In this document: positions 2,582 to 10,077 of the stretch, piece by piece
How positions within the stretch are numbered: the first letter of the stretch is position 1
Layout of the letters: the number at the start of each line of letters is the position of its first letter
Assembly (NCBI GenBank): GCA_035540975.1
Contig: DATLFN010000048.1
Coordinates: 1-45,307 of the forward strand
Direction of reading: 5' to 3'
Length of the DNA: 45,307 nt
DNA from: Acidimicrobiales bacterium
Lineage (GTDB): Bacteria > Actinomycetota > Acidimicrobiia > Acidimicrobiales > GCA-2861595
The notes under the pieces: model-generated
The model's input: the letters and a program-made list of their open reading frames with translations, nothing else
The model's database searches: none
Told to the model about the DNA's origin: nothing
Made by a program: the position numbers and the translations under genes

Positions 2582-3511
2582 ATGACCCTGGGGCAGCTGC
2601 GAACCTTCCTGGCCGTGGCCGACGCCGGGTCCGTCCGGGGCGCCGCCGAGCGGCTGGTGGTGACGCAGCCGGCCGTGTCGTCGGCCCTGGCCTCGCTCGC
2701 CGCCGAGATCGGGGTCCCGTTGGTCGCCCGCGAGGGGCGCGGCCTGCGGCTCACCCCGGCCGGGCTGGCGTTCGCCCGCTACGCCCGCCAGGCCCTCGGC
2801 CTCCTCGACGAGGCCGTCAACGCCGCCGCCGGGCACGACCACCCCGAACGGGGGCGGGTCCGCCTGGCGGCCGTCACCACCGCCGGCGAGCGCATCGTGC
2901 CCCGCCTCCTCGCCTCCTTCCGGCGCCGGTACCCCGAGGCCGGCGTGGTGCTGGAGGTCGGGAACCGGCGCCGGGTGTGGGGCCTGCTGGCCGCCCGCCA
3001 GGTCGACCTCGCCATCGGCGGCCGCCCGCCGGCCGGCGAGCCCTTCGCCACCCTCGCCACCCGGCCGAACCACCTCGTCGTCGTGGCGCCCGCCGAGCCC
3101 GGCGCGGGGGAGCCCGTCCGCCACGTCTCCCTGGACGAGCTCGCCCGCGCCACCTGGCTGCTCCGCGAGCAGGGATCGGGGACCCGGGGGACGACCGAGG
3201 AGCTCCTCCGCGAACTGGAGCTCGACCCCCGCGTCCTCACCGTCGGCTCCAACGGCGCCATCCTCGAGAGCGTCGCCGTCGGGCTCGGCATCACGCTGAT
3301 CTCGCGGGACGCCGCGGCCGGCGAGCTCGAGGCGGGAACGCTCCAGGAGTGGCGCCACGGGCGCCTCCCGCTGCGCCGCGAGTGGCACCTCGTCGGCCGG
3401 GCGGGGGGGGAGCTGGACCCGACGGCGAGGCTCATGCTCGAGCACATCGGTATAGCAGGCGACGGGGCCGAGCGATTCACCCTCCGCCAGCCGCTGTCGC
3501 CGAGAAGGTGA
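2582..3511 (+). CDS. LysR-family transcriptional regulator, CbbR-like
   Basis: The protein has 309 residues. The N-terminal winged helix-turn-helix (residues 1-60, LRTFLAVADAGSVRGAAERL then QPAVSSALASLAAEIG) is followed by the two-lobed effector-binding domain (about 90-295). The length is typical of the family. CbbR members sense Calvin-cycle intermediates and activate cbb genes. Here the gene lies between a CbbY-like phosphatase and an aldolase, with epimerase and phosphoribulokinase a few kb on. The CbbR role is an inference from context, because LysR effector specificity cannot be read from the sequence. Confidence 0.85.
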   Translation: MTLGQLRTFLAVADAGSVRGAAERLVVTQPAVSSALASLAAEIGVPLVAREGRGLRLTPAGLAFARYARQALGLLDEAVNAAAGHDHPERGRVRLAAVTTAGERIVPRLLASFRRRYPEAGVVLEVGNRRRVWGLLAARQVDLAIGGRPPAGEPFATLATRPNHLVVVAPAEPGAGEPVRHVSLDELARATWLLREQGSGTRGTTEELLRELELDPRVLTVGSNGAILESVAVGLGITLISRDAAAGELEAGTLQEWRHGRLPLRREWHLVGRAGGELDPTARLMLEHIGIAGDGAERFTLRQPLSPRR

Positions 3512-3530
3512 CACGGACGGGACCGGCTCG

Positions 3531-3536
3531 TAGGAT
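3531..3536 (+). promoter_or_regulatory. -10-like element (TAGGAT) before the aldolase gene
   Basis: TAGGAT lies 34 nt before the proposed aldolase start, leaving a leader of roughly 28 nt that contains the ribosome-binding site GAGGAGG (3555-3561). The same hexamer precedes the epimerase gene. Confidence 0.4.
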
Positions 3537-3570
3537 TCCGCGCAGGAGACACACGAGGAGGACGACGACC

Positions 3571-4575
3571 ATCAGTGCGAACGATCTGAACGCCGTGGCC
3601 CGGGCCATGGTGGCGCCCGGCAAGGGCATTCTTGCCGCGGACGAGAGCTCCGGGACCATCACCAAGCGCTTCGAGGCCATCGGTGTCGACTCCACCTTCG
3701 ACAGCCGCCGCGACTACCGACAGATGCTCCTCACGACCCCCGGACTCGAGGAGTTCGTGAGCGGCGTGATCCTCTACGACGAGACGCTCCGTCAGTCCAG
3801 CACCGACGGCGTGCCGTTCCCCAAGCTCCTCGAGGGCCTCGGCATCCTCCCGGGCATCAAGGTCGACACGGGCGCCAAGCCGTTGCCGTTCTCACCGGAG
3901 GAGAAGATCACCGAGGGGCTCGACGGCCTTCCCGACCGGGTGAAGGAGTACGTGTCGCTCGGCGCCAAGTTCGCCAAGTGGCGGGCCGTCATCACCATCG
4001 GCGACGGCATCCCCACCGACTACTGCATCGAGGCCAACGCCCACGCGCTGGCCCGGTACGCGTCCATCTGCCAGGAGGGCGGCCTGGTGCCGATCGTCGA
4101 GCCCGAGGTCCTCATGGACTGGGAGAACGACATCGACACCTGCTACGAGGTCACCAAGGCGGCGCACGTGGCGGTGTTCAACGCCCTGCGGCTCCACCGC
4201 GTCCGGCTCGACGGCATGATCCTCAAGCCCAACATGGCCATCTCGGGCAAGAAGTGCCCGACCCAGGCGGGCGTCGAGGAGGTCGCCGAGAAGACCGTCA
4301 AGCTCCTCCGGGAGACCGTCCCGGCGGCGGTGCCCGGCATCGCCTTCCTGTCGGGTGGCCAGAGCGCCGACGTGGCGACCCTCCACCTCAACGCCATGAA
4401 CAAGCTCGGCCCCCATCCCTGGCAGCTGAGCTTCTCCTACGGCCGTGCCCTCCAGGACGACGCCCTCAAGGCGTGGAAGGGCGAGGCGTCCAACAACGAG
4501 GCCGGCCAGACGGCGCTGTACCAGCGGTCGAAGGACAACAGCCAGGCGACGTCGGGCAGCTTCGCCGCCGCCTAG
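3571..4575 (+). CDS. fda: Class I fructose-bisphosphate aldolase
   Basis: The protein has 334 residues. Class I signatures are clear: VAPGKGILAADESSGTI near residues 14-30, the KWR strand (136-138), and the Schiff-base lysine in MILKPNMAISGKK (Lys219). It catalyses reversible condensation of dihydroxyacetone phosphate and glyceraldehyde-3-phosphate in glycolysis, gluconeogenesis and the Calvin cycle. The family N-terminus (MS..L...A.A.VAPGKG) places the start at 3571, where the codon is ATC. A strong GAGGAGG sits 9 nt upstream. The next conventional codons (GTG 3595, ATG 3607) have no ribosome-binding site and would trim the first helix. A non-canonical AUC start is therefore proposed. Confidence 0.93.
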   Translation: MSANDLNAVARAMVAPGKGILAADESSGTITKRFEAIGVDSTFDSRRDYRQMLLTTPGLEEFVSGVILYDETLRQSSTDGVPFPKLLEGLGILPGIKVDTGAKPLPFSPEEKITEGLDGLPDRVKEYVSLGAKFAKWRAVITIGDGIPTDYCIEANAHALARYASICQEGGLVPIVEPEVLMDWENDIDTCYEVTKAAHVAVFNALRLHRVRLDGMILKPNMAISGKKCPTQAGVEEVAEKTVKLLRETVPAAVPGIAFLSGGQSADVATLHLNAMNKLGPHPWQLSFSYGRALQDDALKAWKGEASNNEAGQTALYQRSKDNSQATSGSFAAA

Positions 4576-4600
4576 GCGACCGGCACGCGTACGAGCACCC

Positions 4601-4626
4601 GGAGCCCCCGCCGAGGCGGGGGCTCC
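4601..4626. terminator. Bidirectional hairpin between convergent genes
   Basis: A 12-bp perfect inverted repeat (GGAGCCCCCGCC / GGCGGGGGCTCC) is separated by GA. It sits between the aldolase (ends 4575) and the convergent histidine kinase (ends 4640). There is no clear U-tract. Confidence 0.7.
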
Positions 4627-4639
4627 GTCGCACCACCGG

Positions 4640-5869
4640 TCACGAGCCGTTGCCGCGGGGCACGTCGACGGTCACGGTGGTCCCCTCGCCGGGCGTCGAG
4701 GCGACGGTGACGCGCGCACCCACCAGCGCGGCGCGCTCGGACATCCCGGCCAGGCCGTAGGCGTCGGCGCGGCGCGCCTCGCGCTCGACGTCGAAGCCGC
4801 GGCCGTCGTCCGCCACCACCAGGCGGGCGCCCGAGGCGGTGGCCGTGAGCGCCACGTGGACCGAGGTGGCGGCCGAGTGCTTGGCCACGTTCTGGAGCGC
4901 CTCCTGGGCGATCCGGAACAGCGCCGTCTCCACGTGGGCGGGGACGTCGCACGCCTCGACCTCGACCACCGCGCTCACCCCGGGGAGGGTGGCGGCCAGG
5001 CTCTCCAGGCCGGGCCCGAGGCCGAGGTCGTCGAGCACGGCGGGGCGCAGCCCCACGATCGTGCGCCGCGCCTCCTCGAGGGCGGCGGTGGTGAGCTCCT
5101 TGGCCGAGGCGAGCTCGGCGGCGACCTGGGAGGGGTTCGACGCCAGGTTTTCCTCGGCGGCGGAGAGGTGGTACCAGAGGCTGACCAGGCGCTGGCTGAT
5201 CCCGTCGTGGACGTCGGCCGCCACCCGCCGCCGCTCGAGCTCCTGGAGCTCGATCGTGCCGGCGGCGAAGCGCTCCAGCTCGGCCTCCCGCTCCGCCAGC
5301 CGGGAGTACAGGCGGGCGTTGTCGACGATGCCGGCGAGGAGGCCGGCGACGTCGCTCAGCACGGCCAGCTCCTCGGCCGAGACGTGGCGGCGCTCCTTGG
5401 AGTGGACGTTCACCACGCCCACGACGTGGCGGCCGCGGCGCACCATGGGCAACGACACCAGCGACGCGTAGTCCTCGCCCCGCAGGGCCGGGATGTACTT
5501 GTAGCGGGGGTCCTGCCACTTGTCCTCGACGACCAGGGGCTGGCCGTGCTCGGCCACCCAGCCGGCCACCCCTTCCCCGATGGCGAGCTCGATGGTGCCG
5601 GCCAGCTCGTCGAACGGCGGGGTGGCGCCGGTGAGGACCAGGCAGGTCCGCTCCTCGTCGACCAGGTGCACGAAGCACACGTCCGCCGCCGTCGCCTCCA
5701 CGATGAGGGCGGCGACCCGGCGCACGACCTCCCGGAGGTCGAGGTCCTCGGCGGTGATCTCGATGATGCGCCGCAGGAGCCCGACCCAGGCCAGCCGCTG
5801 GTGGTCGTCCGCCGGGTGGACGGCGGCCGCCTCACCCGCCTGGGCCTCGGCCGCTCCGCCGGCCGTCAG
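4640..5869 (-). CDS. Sensor histidine kinase, GAF plus HisKA_3/HATPase (NarL/DevS type)
   Basis: The protein has about 409 residues. A GAF domain occupies residues 40-190, followed by a dimerisation/phosphoacceptor helix with HDGISQRL (His221) typical of HisKA_3, and a C-terminal ATPase with the N-box EALQNVAKH and G-box DDGRGFD. There is no membrane segment, so it is a cytosolic sensor of a small ligand, redox state or gas. No ATG, GTG or TTG exists between the regulator's stop and the GAF domain. A CTG overlapping that stop (CTGA, 5869-5866) lies 8 nt after GAGGGG and is the likely start. GTG in REVVRR would cut the domain. It is translationally coupled to the response regulator upstream. 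Confidence 0.9.
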   Translation of the reverse strand: MTAGGAAEAQAGEAAAVHPADDHQRLAWVGLLRRIIEITAEDLDLREVVRRVAALIVEATAADVCFVHLVDEERTCLVLTGATPPFDELAGTIELAIGEGVAGWVAEHGQPLVVEDKWQDPRYKYIPALRGEDYASLVSLPMVRRGRHVVGVVNVHSKERRHVSAEELAVLSDVAGLLAGIVDNARLYSRLAEREAELERFAAGTIELQELERRRVAADVHDGISQRLVSLWYHLSAAEENLASNPSQVAAELASAKELTTAALEEARRTIVGLRPAVLDDLGLGPGLESLAATLPGVSAVVEVEACDVPAHVETALFRIAQEALQNVAKHSAATSVHVALTATASGARLVVADDGRGFDVEREARRADAYGLAGMSERAALVGARVTVASTPGEGTTVTVDVPRGNGS

Positions 5870-6510
5870 TGGAACAGCCCCTCGCGGAGGGCGGCGGCGA
5901 TGGCCTGGGCGCGGTCGGCCACGCCGAGCTTGCGGTAGATGGCGCGGGCGTGCGTCTTCACCGTCTCCTCGCCCATCAGGAGCGTGCGCGCCACGGCGCG
6001 ATGCGAGAGCCCCCGCACCATCTGCTCGAGCACCTCGCTCTCCCGGTGGGTGAGGCCGAGGTGGGCGCCGGGCCAGTACTCCCCGCTGTGCAGCTTGGCG
6101 GCGGACAGGGCGACCCGGCCCATCAGCGCCGGGTCGATGGCGATCTCGCCGTCCATCACCCGCTCCAGGTGGCCGACCAGCTCCTGGCCGGTGACGCGTT
6201 TGAGGAGGAACCCCGATGCCCCGGCCCGCAGGGCCTGGAACAGGTACTGCTCGTCGTCGTAGACCGTGAGGAACACCACCCGCACGTCGGGAAGGCGGGT
6301 GAGCAGGTCCTGGCACAGGTCGAGGCCGCTGGCCCCCTTCAGGCGCACGTCGAGGAGGACGAGGTCGGGCTGCAGCGATGCCACCAGGTCGGCGGCGGCG
6401 GCGGCCGTGGTCGTCTGGCCGACGATCTCGATGCGGGCGGCATGGGGCCGCAGCATGGCGGCCAGACCGTCGAGGACCATCTGGTGGTCGTCCACCAGCA
6501 CGACGCGCAT
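5866..6510 (-). CDS. Response regulator, NarL/FixJ (LuxR-type HTH) family
   Basis: The protein has 214 residues from ATG 6510, which has GGGAGG 9 nt upstream. The receiver domain has acidic pair DD (7-8), phosphoacceptor Asp54 (LVLLDVRLKG) and Thr/Lys switch residues (VFLTVYDD, GFLLKR). The C-terminal LuxR helix-turn-helix (about 148-210) contains LTHRESEVLEQMVRGLSHR and ETVKTHARAIYRKLGV. It pairs with the GAF kinase downstream. An alternative ATG at 6546, 12 codons upstream, has a TAGGCT -10 element 7 nt before it and would give a leaderless mRNA. It is divergent from the epimerase gene and may control it. Confidence 0.93.
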   Translation of the reverse strand: MRVVLVDDHQMVLDGLAAMLRPHAARIEIVGQTTTAAAAADLVASLQPDLVLLDVRLKGASGLDLCQDLLTRLPDVRVVFLTVYDDEQYLFQALRAGASGFLLKRVTGQELVGHLERVMDGEIAIDPALMGRVALSAAKLHSGEYWPGAHLGLTHRESEVLEQMVRGLSHRAVARTLLMGEETVKTHARAIYRKLGVADRAQAIAAALREGLFH

Positions 6511-6553
6511 CGGGGCGGTCCTCCCGACAGCCGCCGCGTCCACCATCGGTCCA

Positions 6554-6559
6554 AGCCTA
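6554..6559 (-). promoter_or_regulatory. -10-like element for the response regulator
   Basis: TAGGCT on the minus strand ends 7 nt before the ATG at 6546. This fits a leaderless transcript starting at or near that codon. Confidence 0.4.
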
Positions 6560-6629
6560 CGCGTGGCGTGGGCCGGTCTCCCTCTGCGGTTCCCCGCCGC
6601 GGGGGAGGACCGGCGACGGGTCCCTTGCC

Positions 6630-6635
6630 TAGGAT
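6630..6635 (+). promoter_or_regulatory. -10-like element for the epimerase gene
   Basis: TAGGAT lies 9 nt before ATG 6645, which lacks a convincing ribosome-binding site. A leaderless or near-leaderless start is likely. Confidence 0.45.
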
Positions 6636-6644
6636 CGAGTGATC

Positions 6645-7352
6645 ATGTCTTCACCCTCCGCGTCTGCGAACGAGCGATTCAGCATCATCCCGTCGGTCCT
6701 GCCGTCCGACTTCGCCCGGCTGGGCGAGGAGCTCGTCGCCCTCGAGAAGGCGGGCGTCGACCGCGTTCAGTTCGACGTCATGGACGGGGTGTTCGTGCCC
6801 AACCTGACGTTCGGGCCGGACGTCATCAAGTCGGTCCGGTCGTGGGTGGAGGTCCCCTTCGAGGCCCACCTCATGATCGTCGAGCCCGACCGGATGCTCT
6901 CGACGTGGGTGGAGGCGGGCTGCGAGCTGGTCATCGTCCACGCCGAGGCGGCCACCCACCTGCACCGGACCCTGGCCTCGATCCGCGAGATGGGGGCGAA
7001 GGCGGCCGTCGCCCTGAACCCGGCGACGCCCATCGAGGCGGTCAGGCACGTCGTCGACCTGCTGGACCTCCTCCTGGTGATGACCGTCAACCCGGGCTTC
7101 GGCGGCCAGGACTACATCGCCACGATGGAGCCCAAGATCGCCGAGGCGGCCGCCCTCCTGCGCAACGCCGACCACTACGTGGAGCTGGAGGTCGACGGCG
7201 GGATCAGCGCCAAGACGGTGGCCGGCGCGGCCAGGGCCGGTGCCCGCGCCCTCATCGCCGGCAGCGCCCTCTACAAGGACCCCGAAGGCCTGGAGCACGC
7301 CGTGTCGGAGATTCGCGAGCGCGCTCGCCAGGCCTGCCCCGGCGTCGAGTAA
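6645..7352 (+). CDS. rpe: Ribulose-phosphate 3-epimerase
   Basis: The protein has 235 residues. The TIM-barrel signatures are complete: IIPSVLPSDF (14-23), QFDVMDGVFVPNLTFGP (42-58) with metal-binding Asp, FEAHLMI with metal His, VNPGFGGQ, and the second catalytic Asp in EVDGGI. The enzyme interconverts D-ribulose-5-phosphate and D-xylulose-5-phosphate in the pentose phosphate pathway and Calvin cycle. Phosphoribulokinase follows 56 nt later on the same strand, so the pair likely supplies ribulose-1,5-bisphosphate. ATG 6645 is preferred over GTG 6639. Confidence 0.96.
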   Translation: MSSPSASANERFSIIPSVLPSDFARLGEELVALEKAGVDRVQFDVMDGVFVPNLTFGPDVIKSVRSWVEVPFEAHLMIVEPDRMLSTWVEAGCELVIVHAEAATHLHRTLASIREMGAKAAVALNPATPIEAVRHVVDLLDLLLVMTVNPGFGGQDYIATMEPKIAEAAALLRNADHYVELEVDGGISAKTVAGAARAGARALIAGSALYKDPEGLEHAVSEIRERARQACPGVE

Positions 7353-7408
7353 CGCCCTTTCCTTTCCCGTCCCGTCCCCGCCCGTACCCAACCCCCGAGG
7401 TCGACCCG

Positions 7409-8374
7409 ATGCCCGACAAGCAGATCGCCATCCAACGAGCCTGGCAGCGTGACAACGGCAACAGCCGCAGCCGGCCGGCCATGCTGGCCATCGCCGGCGA
7501 CAGCGCCGCCGGCAAGACCACCCTCACCCAGGGCCTGGTCGCCGCGTTGGGCGTCTTGCACTGCACGTCGATCTGCACCGACCACTACCACCGCTTCGAC
7601 CGCGAGGAGCGCAAGGACAAGCCGTTCACGCCGCTCCACCCCGACTGCAACTACGTCGAGGTGATGGAGCAGCACCTCCAGCTGATCGCCCTGGGCCAGC
7701 CCATCCTCCAGCCGGTGTACGACCACAGCAACGGCACGCTGACCCGCCCGATCCTGATCGAGCCCCGGGACTACGTGATCATCGAGGGCCTGCTCCCTCT
7801 GCACTCCAAGCTGTCGCGGGCGTGCTTCGACATCGGCGTGTACCTGGACCCGCCCGAGGAGATCCGCTACGACTGGAAGATCAAGCGGGACACGTCCAAG
7901 CGGGGCTACACCGAGGAGCAGGTGCGGGCCGACCTGGAGAAGCGGGAGCCCGAGTCGGCCGAGTTCATCCGTCCCCAGCGGGCCCACGCCGACATCGTCG
8001 TTCGCTTCGCGCCGATCGAGGAGCGCGGCGAGTCGGCGGACGACCCGCTCAGCGCCACCCTGCTGCTCCGGCCCACGGCGCCGCACCCCGACCTGGCCAG
8101 CATCCTCACCGAGGACGTGAGCAAGGCCATCCACATGAAGCTGACCCGCGACGACGACGGCAAGCCGGTCGACGCCGTCCACATCCACGCCTACGCGGAC
8201 CCCGAGGTCACCGAGAAGGTGAAGCAGGCCATCTGGGACCAGCTCGGCGTGGCGGAGCCGCTGCCCGACACCCTGGGCGAGCTCGAGCCGGGCGGCCCCC
8301 GCAGCGAGCCGCTGGCGCTCACCCAGCTGCTCCTCCTCTTCCACCTCATCCAGGCGCGGAACTCGACCGCGTAG
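7409..8374 (+). CDS. prk: Phosphoribulokinase, class II (cyanobacterial/plant-like)
   Basis: The protein has 321 residues. P-loop GDSAAGKTT is at 30-38; DHYHRFDREERKD, LHPDCNYVEVMEQHL, PVYDHSNGTL and IIEGLLPLHS follow in the family order, then YDWKIKRDTSKRG. It phosphorylates ribulose-5-phosphate to ribulose-1,5-bisphosphate, the RuBisCO substrate. Length and the WKI.RD..KRG segment resemble class II enzymes more than proteobacterial CbbP. The paired regulatory cysteines of plant enzymes are not obvious. ATG 7409 has GAGG 8 nt upstream. A hairpin repeat and a strong terminator follow directly. Its presence strongly suggests CO2 fixation elsewhere in the genome. Confidence 0.93.
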   Translation: MPDKQIAIQRAWQRDNGNSRSRPAMLAIAGDSAAGKTTLTQGLVAALGVLHCTSICTDHYHRFDREERKDKPFTPLHPDCNYVEVMEQHLQLIALGQPILQPVYDHSNGTLTRPILIEPRDYVIIEGLLPLHSKLSRACFDIGVYLDPPEEIRYDWKIKRDTSKRGYTEEQVRADLEKREPESAEFIRPQRAHADIVVRFAPIEERGESADDPLSATLLLRPTAPHPDLASILTEDVSKAIHMKLTRDDDGKPVDAVHIHAYADPEVTEKVKQAIWDQLGVAEPLPDTLGELEPGGPRSEPLALTQLLLLFHLIQARNSTA

Positions 8375-8584: not shown

Positions 8585-9322
8585 CTACGCGGGGACGGGG
8601 AGGAGGCTTCTGGCCAGGTTGCAGAGGGCTTGGACGGCGGGGGCCTCGGGGGCGAGGTCGAGGGGGGCGACGCCCTTGCGGTCGGCCTCGACGATGGCGG
8701 GGTCGTCGGGGATCGCGACGATCTCGACGTCCGGGAAGTGCTCCTCCATGGTGGCCAGGTCGGCGTCGCCGCGGATGCGGCTGGCCACGACCACGATGCG
8801 GCCCAGCTGCTTCTCCTTGGCCAGCACCACGGCCCGCTGGCCCACCTCGATCGACTTCGGGGTCGGCTCGACCACGACCAGCACGGCGTCGACCCGCTGG
8901 TCGCCCAGGCGGGTGAGCGTGCCGATGCCCGCCTCCAGATCGGCGATCACGGTGACGTCCTGGAAATCAACGGACCCGAGCAACTGCTCGGGAGACAGCC
9001 CGCATCAGAGTCAGCCTGGTTCGGGGTTGTCGATGCGGGTGACCACCGCCAGGCGCACGCCGTCGGGGGCGTCCGAGCCGAAGCGGGAGATGAGGTCGTC
9101 CCAGCCGGGCGCGTGCTCCTCGCCGCCCTCGTCCAGCCCCTCCCGCATGCCGACCAGCCGCTCGGTCTCGAAGTCGCCCACACCGAGGGAGATGCCCAGG
9201 TTGGGGTTCGAGTCGCAGTCCAGCGCGACGACCGACAGCCCGTGACGGGCCAGCGTGCGGGCGACCACGGCGGAGGTGGTGGTCTTCCCCGACCCGCCCT
9301 TTCCGACGACGGCAACCCTCAT
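8585..9322 (-). CDS. CooC-like ATPase with two in-frame TGA codons at the CxC position; candidate selenoprotein
   Basis: The frame spans 246 codons from ATG 9322 to TAG. Deviant Walker A GKGGSGKTT is at 7-15, Asp in ALDCDSNPN, and a C-terminal VEPTPKSI segment, as in CooC/MinD-type metallochaperones. Codons 104 and 106 are TGA (9013-9011 and 9007-9005) followed by Cys107. The frame continues perfectly with PEQLL and ADLEAGIGTL. CooC proteins bind metal at the dimer interface through a CxC motif (112/114 in the Carboxydothermus protein), and here that position reads U-x-U-C. The hairpin at 8975-8992 lies where a bacterial SECIS should. ATG overlaps the stop of the upstream paralogue (ATGA). 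The alternative is a pseudogene with two nonsense codons. Confidence 0.75.
8975..8992 (-). promoter_or_regulatory. Candidate bacterial SECIS hairpin
   Basis: On the coding strand CCCGAGCAGTTGCTCGGG forms a 7-bp stem with an AGTT loop (or 6 bp with CAGTTG). The loop starts 18-19 nt after the second TGA and 24-25 nt after the first, with G among the first two loop bases. This agrees with the bacterial SECIS rules as I know them. Codons around it are unusually A/T-ending for this genome, suggesting RNA-level constraint. Confidence 0.6.
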
Positions 9323-10077
9323 GCGATGCGCTCCTCGCTCATCTGGTCGACCAGGGATTCTACCGCCTGTACGGCGGCTGAATCGGGCGCCAGGTCGATG
9401 GGCGCCGCCATCTTCTCCTCCGCCTCCGCCAGCGCCTCGTCCCACGGCACGGCGCCGACGACCTCGAGGCCGGTCCGCCGGGCGATCAGCTCGACGTCGC
9501 CTTCCTCCCGGACCTTGTTGGCGACGGCCACGACCCGGCGGGGGTGCTCCTCGTCCAGCGAGAGCCGCGACAGCCGGCGGGCGGTGAGCAGCGACTTGGC
9601 CGTGGGCTCCACCACGATCAGGACGGTGCGGGCGTAGTCGCCCCAGCCGGTGAAGGCCTGGCGGGTGCCGCCGGGCAGGTCGCCCACCACGTTCCAGCGG
9701 TCGTCGGGCAGCTCGCGGAGGATCTGGCGGAAGGCGACCTGGGACTTGAACAGCGAGCGCGTGTCGCCGCGGTGCTTCCCGAACTGGAGGAAGCGGACGC
9801 CGTCGGGGGCGACCGCCGCGTAGCGGTCGATGGCGTCGGCGGCGGTGAGCCCGGTGGCCAGCTGCCAGCGGGGGCGCTCCCCCTCTGGCCGCTCCTCGAT
9901 CGCCTCGTCGGGGAGGGGGGCGTCGGAGATCTCCAGGCCCAGCGAGAAGGCGAGGCCGGGCAGGGGGTCGGAGTCGATGGCGAGGACCGGGTCCCCGCGC
10001 CGGGCCAGCGCCCGGCAGAACGTGCCGGCGATGGCCGACTTCCCCACGCCGCCCTTGCCCACGAATGCGATACGCAC
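9319..10077 (-). CDS. CooC-like ATPase, paralogue lacking the CxC motif
   Basis: The protein has 252 residues from GTG 10077, with AAGGAG 7 nt upstream. Deviant Walker A GKGGVGKSA is at 7-15, followed by IDSDPLPG, GDLPGGTR and VEPTAKSL. It aligns along its length with the downstream gene, but the metal-binding Cys position is replaced by the segment HRGDTRSLFKSQ. CooC-family ATPases insert nickel or other metals into target enzymes such as CO dehydrogenase; the target here is unknown and no such enzyme is in the window. The stop overlaps the next gene's ATG, so the two products probably form a heteromer, with only one bearing the metal site. Confidence 0.85.
   Translation of the reverse strand: MRIAFVGKGGVGKSAIAGTFCRALARRGDPVLAIDSDPLPGLAFSLGLEISDAPLPDEAIEERPEGERPRWQLATGLTAADAIDRYAAVAPDGVRFLQFGKHRGDTRSLFKSQVAFRQILRELPDDRWNVVGDLPGGTRQAFTGWGDYARTVLIVVEPTAKSLLTARRLSRLSLDEEHPRRVVAVANKVREEGDVELIARRTGLEVVGAVPWDEALAEAEEKMAAPIDLAPDSAAVQAVESLVDQMSEERIA

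Follow-up and report, generated by a model that had tools for sequence, protein, structure and literature searches.

Paired in-frame UGA codons in a CooC-like ATPase gene of an acidimicrobial bacterium: a predicted selenoprotein with a probable role in hydrogenase maturation

Why would a gene for a CooC-like ATPase carry two TGA codons, one codon apart, at precisely the metal-binding motif of its family? The gene in question lies in a window of 45,307 nucleotides (the whole stretch of DNA analysed here) from an Acidimicrobiales bacterium, a soil-type actinobacterium. A sequence-only reading had proposed that both TGAs encode selenocysteine (Sec) and that the product is a selenolate-ligated metallochaperone of a new selenoprotein type. 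We examined this proposal by comparison with relatives of the gene, the decoding machinery of the genome, and the genes that accompany the family elsewhere.

The gene, its partner, and its likeness to CooC1

The gene occupies positions 8585-9322 on the minus strand; the strand was missing from the sequence-only reading, and a plus-strand reading of the same interval was rejected because the plus frame there encodes nothing relevant. Read on the minus strand, the frame opens with ATG at 9322 and closes with TAG at 8587-8585, giving 245 codons plus the stop and a CooC/MinD-type P-loop ATPase of 245 amino acids with the motif U-L-U-C. Its internal stops are exactly two, TGA at codon 104 (9011-9013, minus) and TGA at codon 106 (9005-9007, minus), with a TGC codon directly after at 107; the earlier description of a frame intact over 246 codons save for these two TGAs, with a Cys codon following, was thus borne out. 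A deviant Walker A motif, GKGGSGKTT, spans residues 7-15 (9278-9304, minus), and G7, K8, G9, G10, G12, K13 and T14 were invariant in our alignment A1, in keeping with the GKGGxGKT signature.

Immediately upstream on the same strand (9319-10077) is a paralogue that lacks the CxC motif and is likely the partner subunit. Its TGA stop overlaps the start codon of the Sec gene as ATGA, so that the two genes are translationally coupled, and the two products are 34% identical across their full length, in line with the similarity noted earlier. In 29 of 32 cases a paralogue without CxC lay immediately upstream. Comparison of the gene with its two nearest relatives gave dN/dS values of 0.10-0.14 before the TGAs and 0.26-0.33 after them; purifying selection acts on both sides.

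Assignment of the protein to the CooC group came from sequence profiles. Pfam returned general P-loop domains alone (such as CbiA and AAA_31), NCBIfam 20.0 held no specific model whose cut-off the protein reached, and the HypB model TIGR00073 was not among its NCBIfam matches. A profile built from 37 relatives found CooC1 (3kje) as its best PDB sequence match (E 1.9e-47), followed by MinD (3e-20), with the nearest Fe protein at 9.5e-12. In that alignment residue 104 fell on Cys112 and residue 106 on Cys114 of CooC1, exactly the CxC of the Carboxydothermus protein to which the TGAs had been assigned by eye; the two-residue metal motif of the CooC-type ATPases is therefore occupied by UxU here and by CxU or CxC in orthologues. 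An AlphaFold model based on the relatives' alignment (mean pLDDT 88.9; 65-78 around residues 91-120) had the common MinD/NifH/CooC fold by Foldseek and VIA. Structural matches alone do not tell CooC from MinD, FleN or NifH; the sequence profile does.

Decoding of the UGA codons

The window belongs to a genome of 3.45 Mb in 171 contigs, 97% complete. All four components of Sec synthesis and insertion that the earlier reading had suggested looking for were present: SelA (410.9 bits), SelB (270.8 bits) and SelD (328.7 bits), each above its curated cut-off, and a tRNA-Sec with anticodon UCA (67.2 bits, above the Rfam cut-off). Within the window, a search with Rfam at its gathering threshold returned no match.

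A search for a SECIS element downstream of the TGAs had also been suggested, and a conserved SECIS-like hairpin was found there, CCCGAGC-AGUU-GCUCGGG at 8975-8992 (minus), with a core, GAGCAGTTGCTC, that starts 15 nt after TGA106. The core pairs as GAGC-AGUU-GCUC and was invariant in all 27 distinct Sec-coding sequences. The codons GAG CAG TTG CTC stood at this site in 28 of 28 Sec genes, and TTG is a minority leucine codon in these genes (71 of 662 Leu codons, 28 of those 71 at the hairpin). Among the 27 distinct sequences the next pairs outward covary (CG, UG and UA at one; CG and GC at another), and sliding the partner columns by 1-3 positions lowered the pairing from 95% to 21-48%. In all three Cys genes the motif was altered (GAGCAACTGCTC, GAGCAGTTGTTG and GAGAACCTCATT). 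Across the whole 3.45 Mb genome, the pattern TGA-N(12-20)-GRGCAGTTGCTC matched twice, here and in a CooC-like paralogue on contig C2; a reversed control pattern had no match. The folding energy of the hairpin is not distinctive (z -0.6), and conservation and covariation were used as evidence in place of RNA minimum free energy. The GU of the loop is one nucleotide off its place in the fdhF SECIS of E. coli. The distance to the hairpin is 6 nt longer for UGA104 than for UGA106.

Relatives were read codon by codon in 19 cases from a species-genome collection and in 12 genomes of a 396-genome sample of the phylum, the latter including the window's own. Among these 31, residues 104 and 106 were U/U, C/U or C/C (UxUC, CxUC or CxCC), with Sec at 106 in 28; no other position carried a stop codon, and no frameshift was found. 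The Cys homologues read CPCC (L011), CQCC and CYCC (L102) at the Sec site. When the motif was masked for tree building, the tree required at least five changes between U and C at 104 and two at 106. Both TGAs recur in many metagenome-assembled genomes (MAGs), and the isolate Pseudonocardia kunmingensis DSM 45301, which has the motif CPUC, carries TGA at 106. The one departure from TGA strengthens the case for Sec: Modestobacter sp. DSM 44400 has TAG at codon 106, together with a tRNA-Sec whose anticodon is CUA. The TAG lies at L026:5316-5318 (see also L048) and marks this CooC-like gene as a further candidate UAG-coded selenoprotein.

A tRNA-Sec was detected in 16 of the 19 genomes of the first set and in most other Sec-form genomes, and none was detected in G400, all of whose copies are Cys forms. 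It was also not seen in the Sec-form MAGs G159, G219, G036, G160, G006, G007 and others, which may reflect assembly gaps; these are mainly fragmented assemblies, yet G159, G219, G036 and G160 are more than 90% complete.

Many paralogues in the phylum have Sec at the same site, a point that the sequence-only reading had no means to see. Four further CooC-like paralogues are present in the window's genome, at C2:1094-1813 (L098), C77:4867-5613 (L099), C63:22944-23651 (L101) and C90:3740-4486 (L100). In three of them an in-frame TGA takes the place of the first motif Cys (GUGG, GUTG and GUTC), and the remaining one has Cys throughout (GCLC); two of the paralogues have Gly instead of the second motif Cys. 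Separate CooC-like groups with UxC (GULCAAHARV, GUMCSSHATV; L070-L080, L094, L097, L105 and L106) occur in other Actinomycetota families, several of them beside hydrogenase genes, with what appears to be a different hairpin after the TGA.

Two readings would do away with selenocysteine. The window comes from a fragmented assembly, which lends some color to the idea that the gene is decaying and that its TGAs are nonsense mutations or errors of sequencing, but many independent genomes, one of them an isolate, have these stops at the same two positions, and the selection is purifying, the hairpin conserved and the tRNA-Sec anticodon a match. The argument that random nonsense mutations would hardly strike these two codons gains from the relatives, whose stops fall at 104 and 106 alone and whose lone TAG is matched by a tRNA-Sec(CUA). 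We therefore regard the pseudogene or error reading as refuted on comparative grounds, with next to no probability left to it. Equally slight is the chance that the whole genome assigns TGA to some other amino acid, for instance Trp. Most window genes examined, the upstream paralogue included, end in TGA, so there is no general change of code; that reading is further refuted by the tRNA-Sec(UCA) and by the relatives, which have Cys and not Trp at these sites. From the comparative evidence it is near certain that the gene encodes a genuine selenoprotein, into which selenium would be incorporated. In the mechanism we propose, SelB and tRNA-Sec would decode both UGA104 and UGA106, guided by the downstream hairpin, a single SECIS presumably serving both codons.

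Hydrogenase context and proposed function

The second element of the early proposal, a metallochaperone, has a different footing from the first: Sec was upheld by comparison, and the function draws on homology and gene context. The context, also unseen in the sequence-only reading, is that of [NiFe]-hydrogenase maturation, mostly without HypB. In several Actinomycetota, orthologues adjoin hypF or share a cluster with hydrogenase structural genes and hypC-D-E, and the neighborhoods examined held hydrogenase genes. The genome of the window has at least four matches to the [NiFe] large subunit, along with HypC, D, E and F; the hydrogenase and hypCDEF genes are on other contigs, one set adjoining the CLC-type paralogue L100, and no hydrogenase subunit gene adjoins the Sec gene on its own contig. 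No HypA or HypB was found in this genome; sub-threshold HypB matches there (contig C12) and in G308 and G255 were rejected, being UreG.

Four small ORFs lie on the plus strand of the window at 364-1639 (364-630, 627-914, 916-1170 and 1181-1639). ORF 627-914 has no Pfam match, and in other genomes relatives of some of the four are recurrent neighbors of [NiFe]-hydrogenase genes. At about 2582-8374 (plus) are genes that by eye are probably of the Calvin cycle, including a LysR-type regulator, fructose-bisphosphate aldolase, ribulose-phosphate epimerase and phosphoribulokinase; these would suit H2-driven carbon fixation.

Association tests on the 396-genome sample rest on incomplete MAGs and are uncorrected for phylogeny. 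A divergent type of [NiFe]-hydrogenase, presumably "group 1h-like" judging from its divergence and motifs, was present in 10 of 12 genomes with an orthologue and in 48 of 384 others (p=1e-7, phylogeny ignored). Among hydrogenase genomes, HypB accompanied the orthologue in 1 of 10 cases and was present in 118 of 147 genomes that lack it (p=1e-5, phylogeny ignored), the single case being the all-Cys G400. When the comparison was widened to single-Sec UxC paralogues, HypB was present in 2 of 17 versus 29 of 41 genomes (phylogeny ignored). Replacement of HypB is not strict, since HypB is present in the Sec-form genomes G009, G013, G014 and G018. At the thresholds used, neither HypA nor HypB was matched in G100, G133, G219, G255, G308, G230 or G412; the first five of these, unlike G230 and G412, yielded a [NiFe]-hydrogenase large subunit and so imply a route of Ni insertion other than HypAB.

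The linkage to hydrogenase genes, the associations, and the lack of HypA and HypB in the window's genome lead us to infer both the metal and the client, that is, a role in inserting Ni into [NiFe]-hydrogenase. Our preferred explanation, to which we assign a probability of about 0.7, is that the protein is a selenolate-liganded, ATP-driven metallochaperone, probably for Ni, in [NiFe]-hydrogenase maturation. The two selenolates and the neighboring Cys (U-x-U-C) would sit at the position of the Ni/Zn site of CooC1, at the dimer interface, and would bind the metal there; the Sec protein probably pairs with its coupled paralogue, perhaps as a heterodimer. ATP would drive the loading and the release of a soft metal ion, with Ni(II) the most likely, for hydrogenase maturation in Actinomycetota that mostly lack HypB. 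Compared with thiolates, selenolates may hold the metal with higher affinity and be easier to restore after oxidation, in cells that are probably aerobic.

Two other functions were considered for the selenoprotein. The UxUC motif might hold an Fe-S cluster or redox center, in which case the protein would donate electrons at the expense of ATP, as NifH, BchL and CfbC do. The fold is common to the Fe proteins, which reach VIA Z scores (about 21-22) similar to that of CooC1 (20.7), and a redox function is assumed for most known selenoproteins (PMC13188914). By sequence, however, CooC1 is far ahead (E 1.9e-47 versus 9.5e-12) and the motif position matches it exactly, and no catalytic partner of a reductase was recognized in the neighborhoods, which held hydrogenase subunits and hyp genes only; we consider this function unlikely. 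Slightly more unlikely is a Sec metallochaperone for another metal center, for example Mo/Cu CO dehydrogenase or another Ni enzyme. MoxR and VWA-like ORFs, named by eye, occur in the L093 cluster, the gene lies apart from hydrogenase genes on the window's contig, and the UreG of the genome could in principle supply Ni, but the repeated adjacency to hypF and the co-occurrence with hydrogenase speak against it.

More broadly, many Actinomycetota may insert Ni without HypB, and often without HypA, by way of selenolate CooC-like ATPases (UxUC, CxUC or UxC) with a partner that lacks CxC, and with one SECIS for a pair of UGAs one codon apart; we would put even odds on this generalization. If true, the HypB-less selenolate route would be new both as a class of selenoprotein and as a branch of hydrogenase biogenesis, and it suggests how H2-oxidizing actinobacteria could load Ni without HypB. 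It is unusual for an ATPase that delivers metal to have Sec as its metal ligand, and two such residues right at the site of delivery. The natural series of UxUC, CxUC, CxCC and UAG-coded Sec offers a test of why selenium is used. A practical implication is that the annotation of public genomes probably shows members of this family as truncated genes or as pseudogenes.

Comparison with known systems

The most complete inventory found, from 2026, lists 119 prokaryotic selenoprotein families and subfamilies (PMC13188914); neither a CooC/MinD-type ATPase nor a UxUC motif is among them. Term searches of the open-licence literature found no CooC-like selenoprotein in PMC12013277, PMC9312934 or PMC1794560. 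The nearest concept is the CobW-related selenoprotein (NF041053; PMC13188914), which is likewise the Sec form of a P-loop NTPase from a metallochaperone-type family but belongs to a different NTPase class and has one Sec, in a UxxC motif. The UAG-coded selenoproteins of Geodermatophilaceae use TAG for Sec with a tRNA-Sec(CUA), as does the Modestobacter orthologue; they include FDH, UGSC proteins and AhpC, with no CooC-like ATPase named among them (PMC5330540).

HypB, with HypA, performs the same step that we propose for the Sec protein, NTP-dependent delivery of Ni, and CooC and HypB are alike in overall architecture (PMC9164220). HypB, however, is a GTPase of the HypB/UreG family, whereas the Sec protein is of another P-loop class, and genomes with the latter mostly lack HypB. 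In hypB mutants, rescue by an excess of Ni is a classical observation (PMC12134894). The closest known relative is CooC1 of Carboxydothermus hydrogenoformans (3kje/3kji), the ATPase of Ni-CODH maturation, which has the same deviant Walker A and the same position of the metal motif. CooC1 binds one Ni per dimer at the interface site formed by Cys112 and Cys114, where Zn competes, and ATP-driven release of Ni has been attributed to it (PMC6006190). The predicted selenoprotein differs from CooC1 in having Sec at one or both ligands and an extra Cys (UxUC), a coupled paralogue without CxC, and a hydrogenase gene context.
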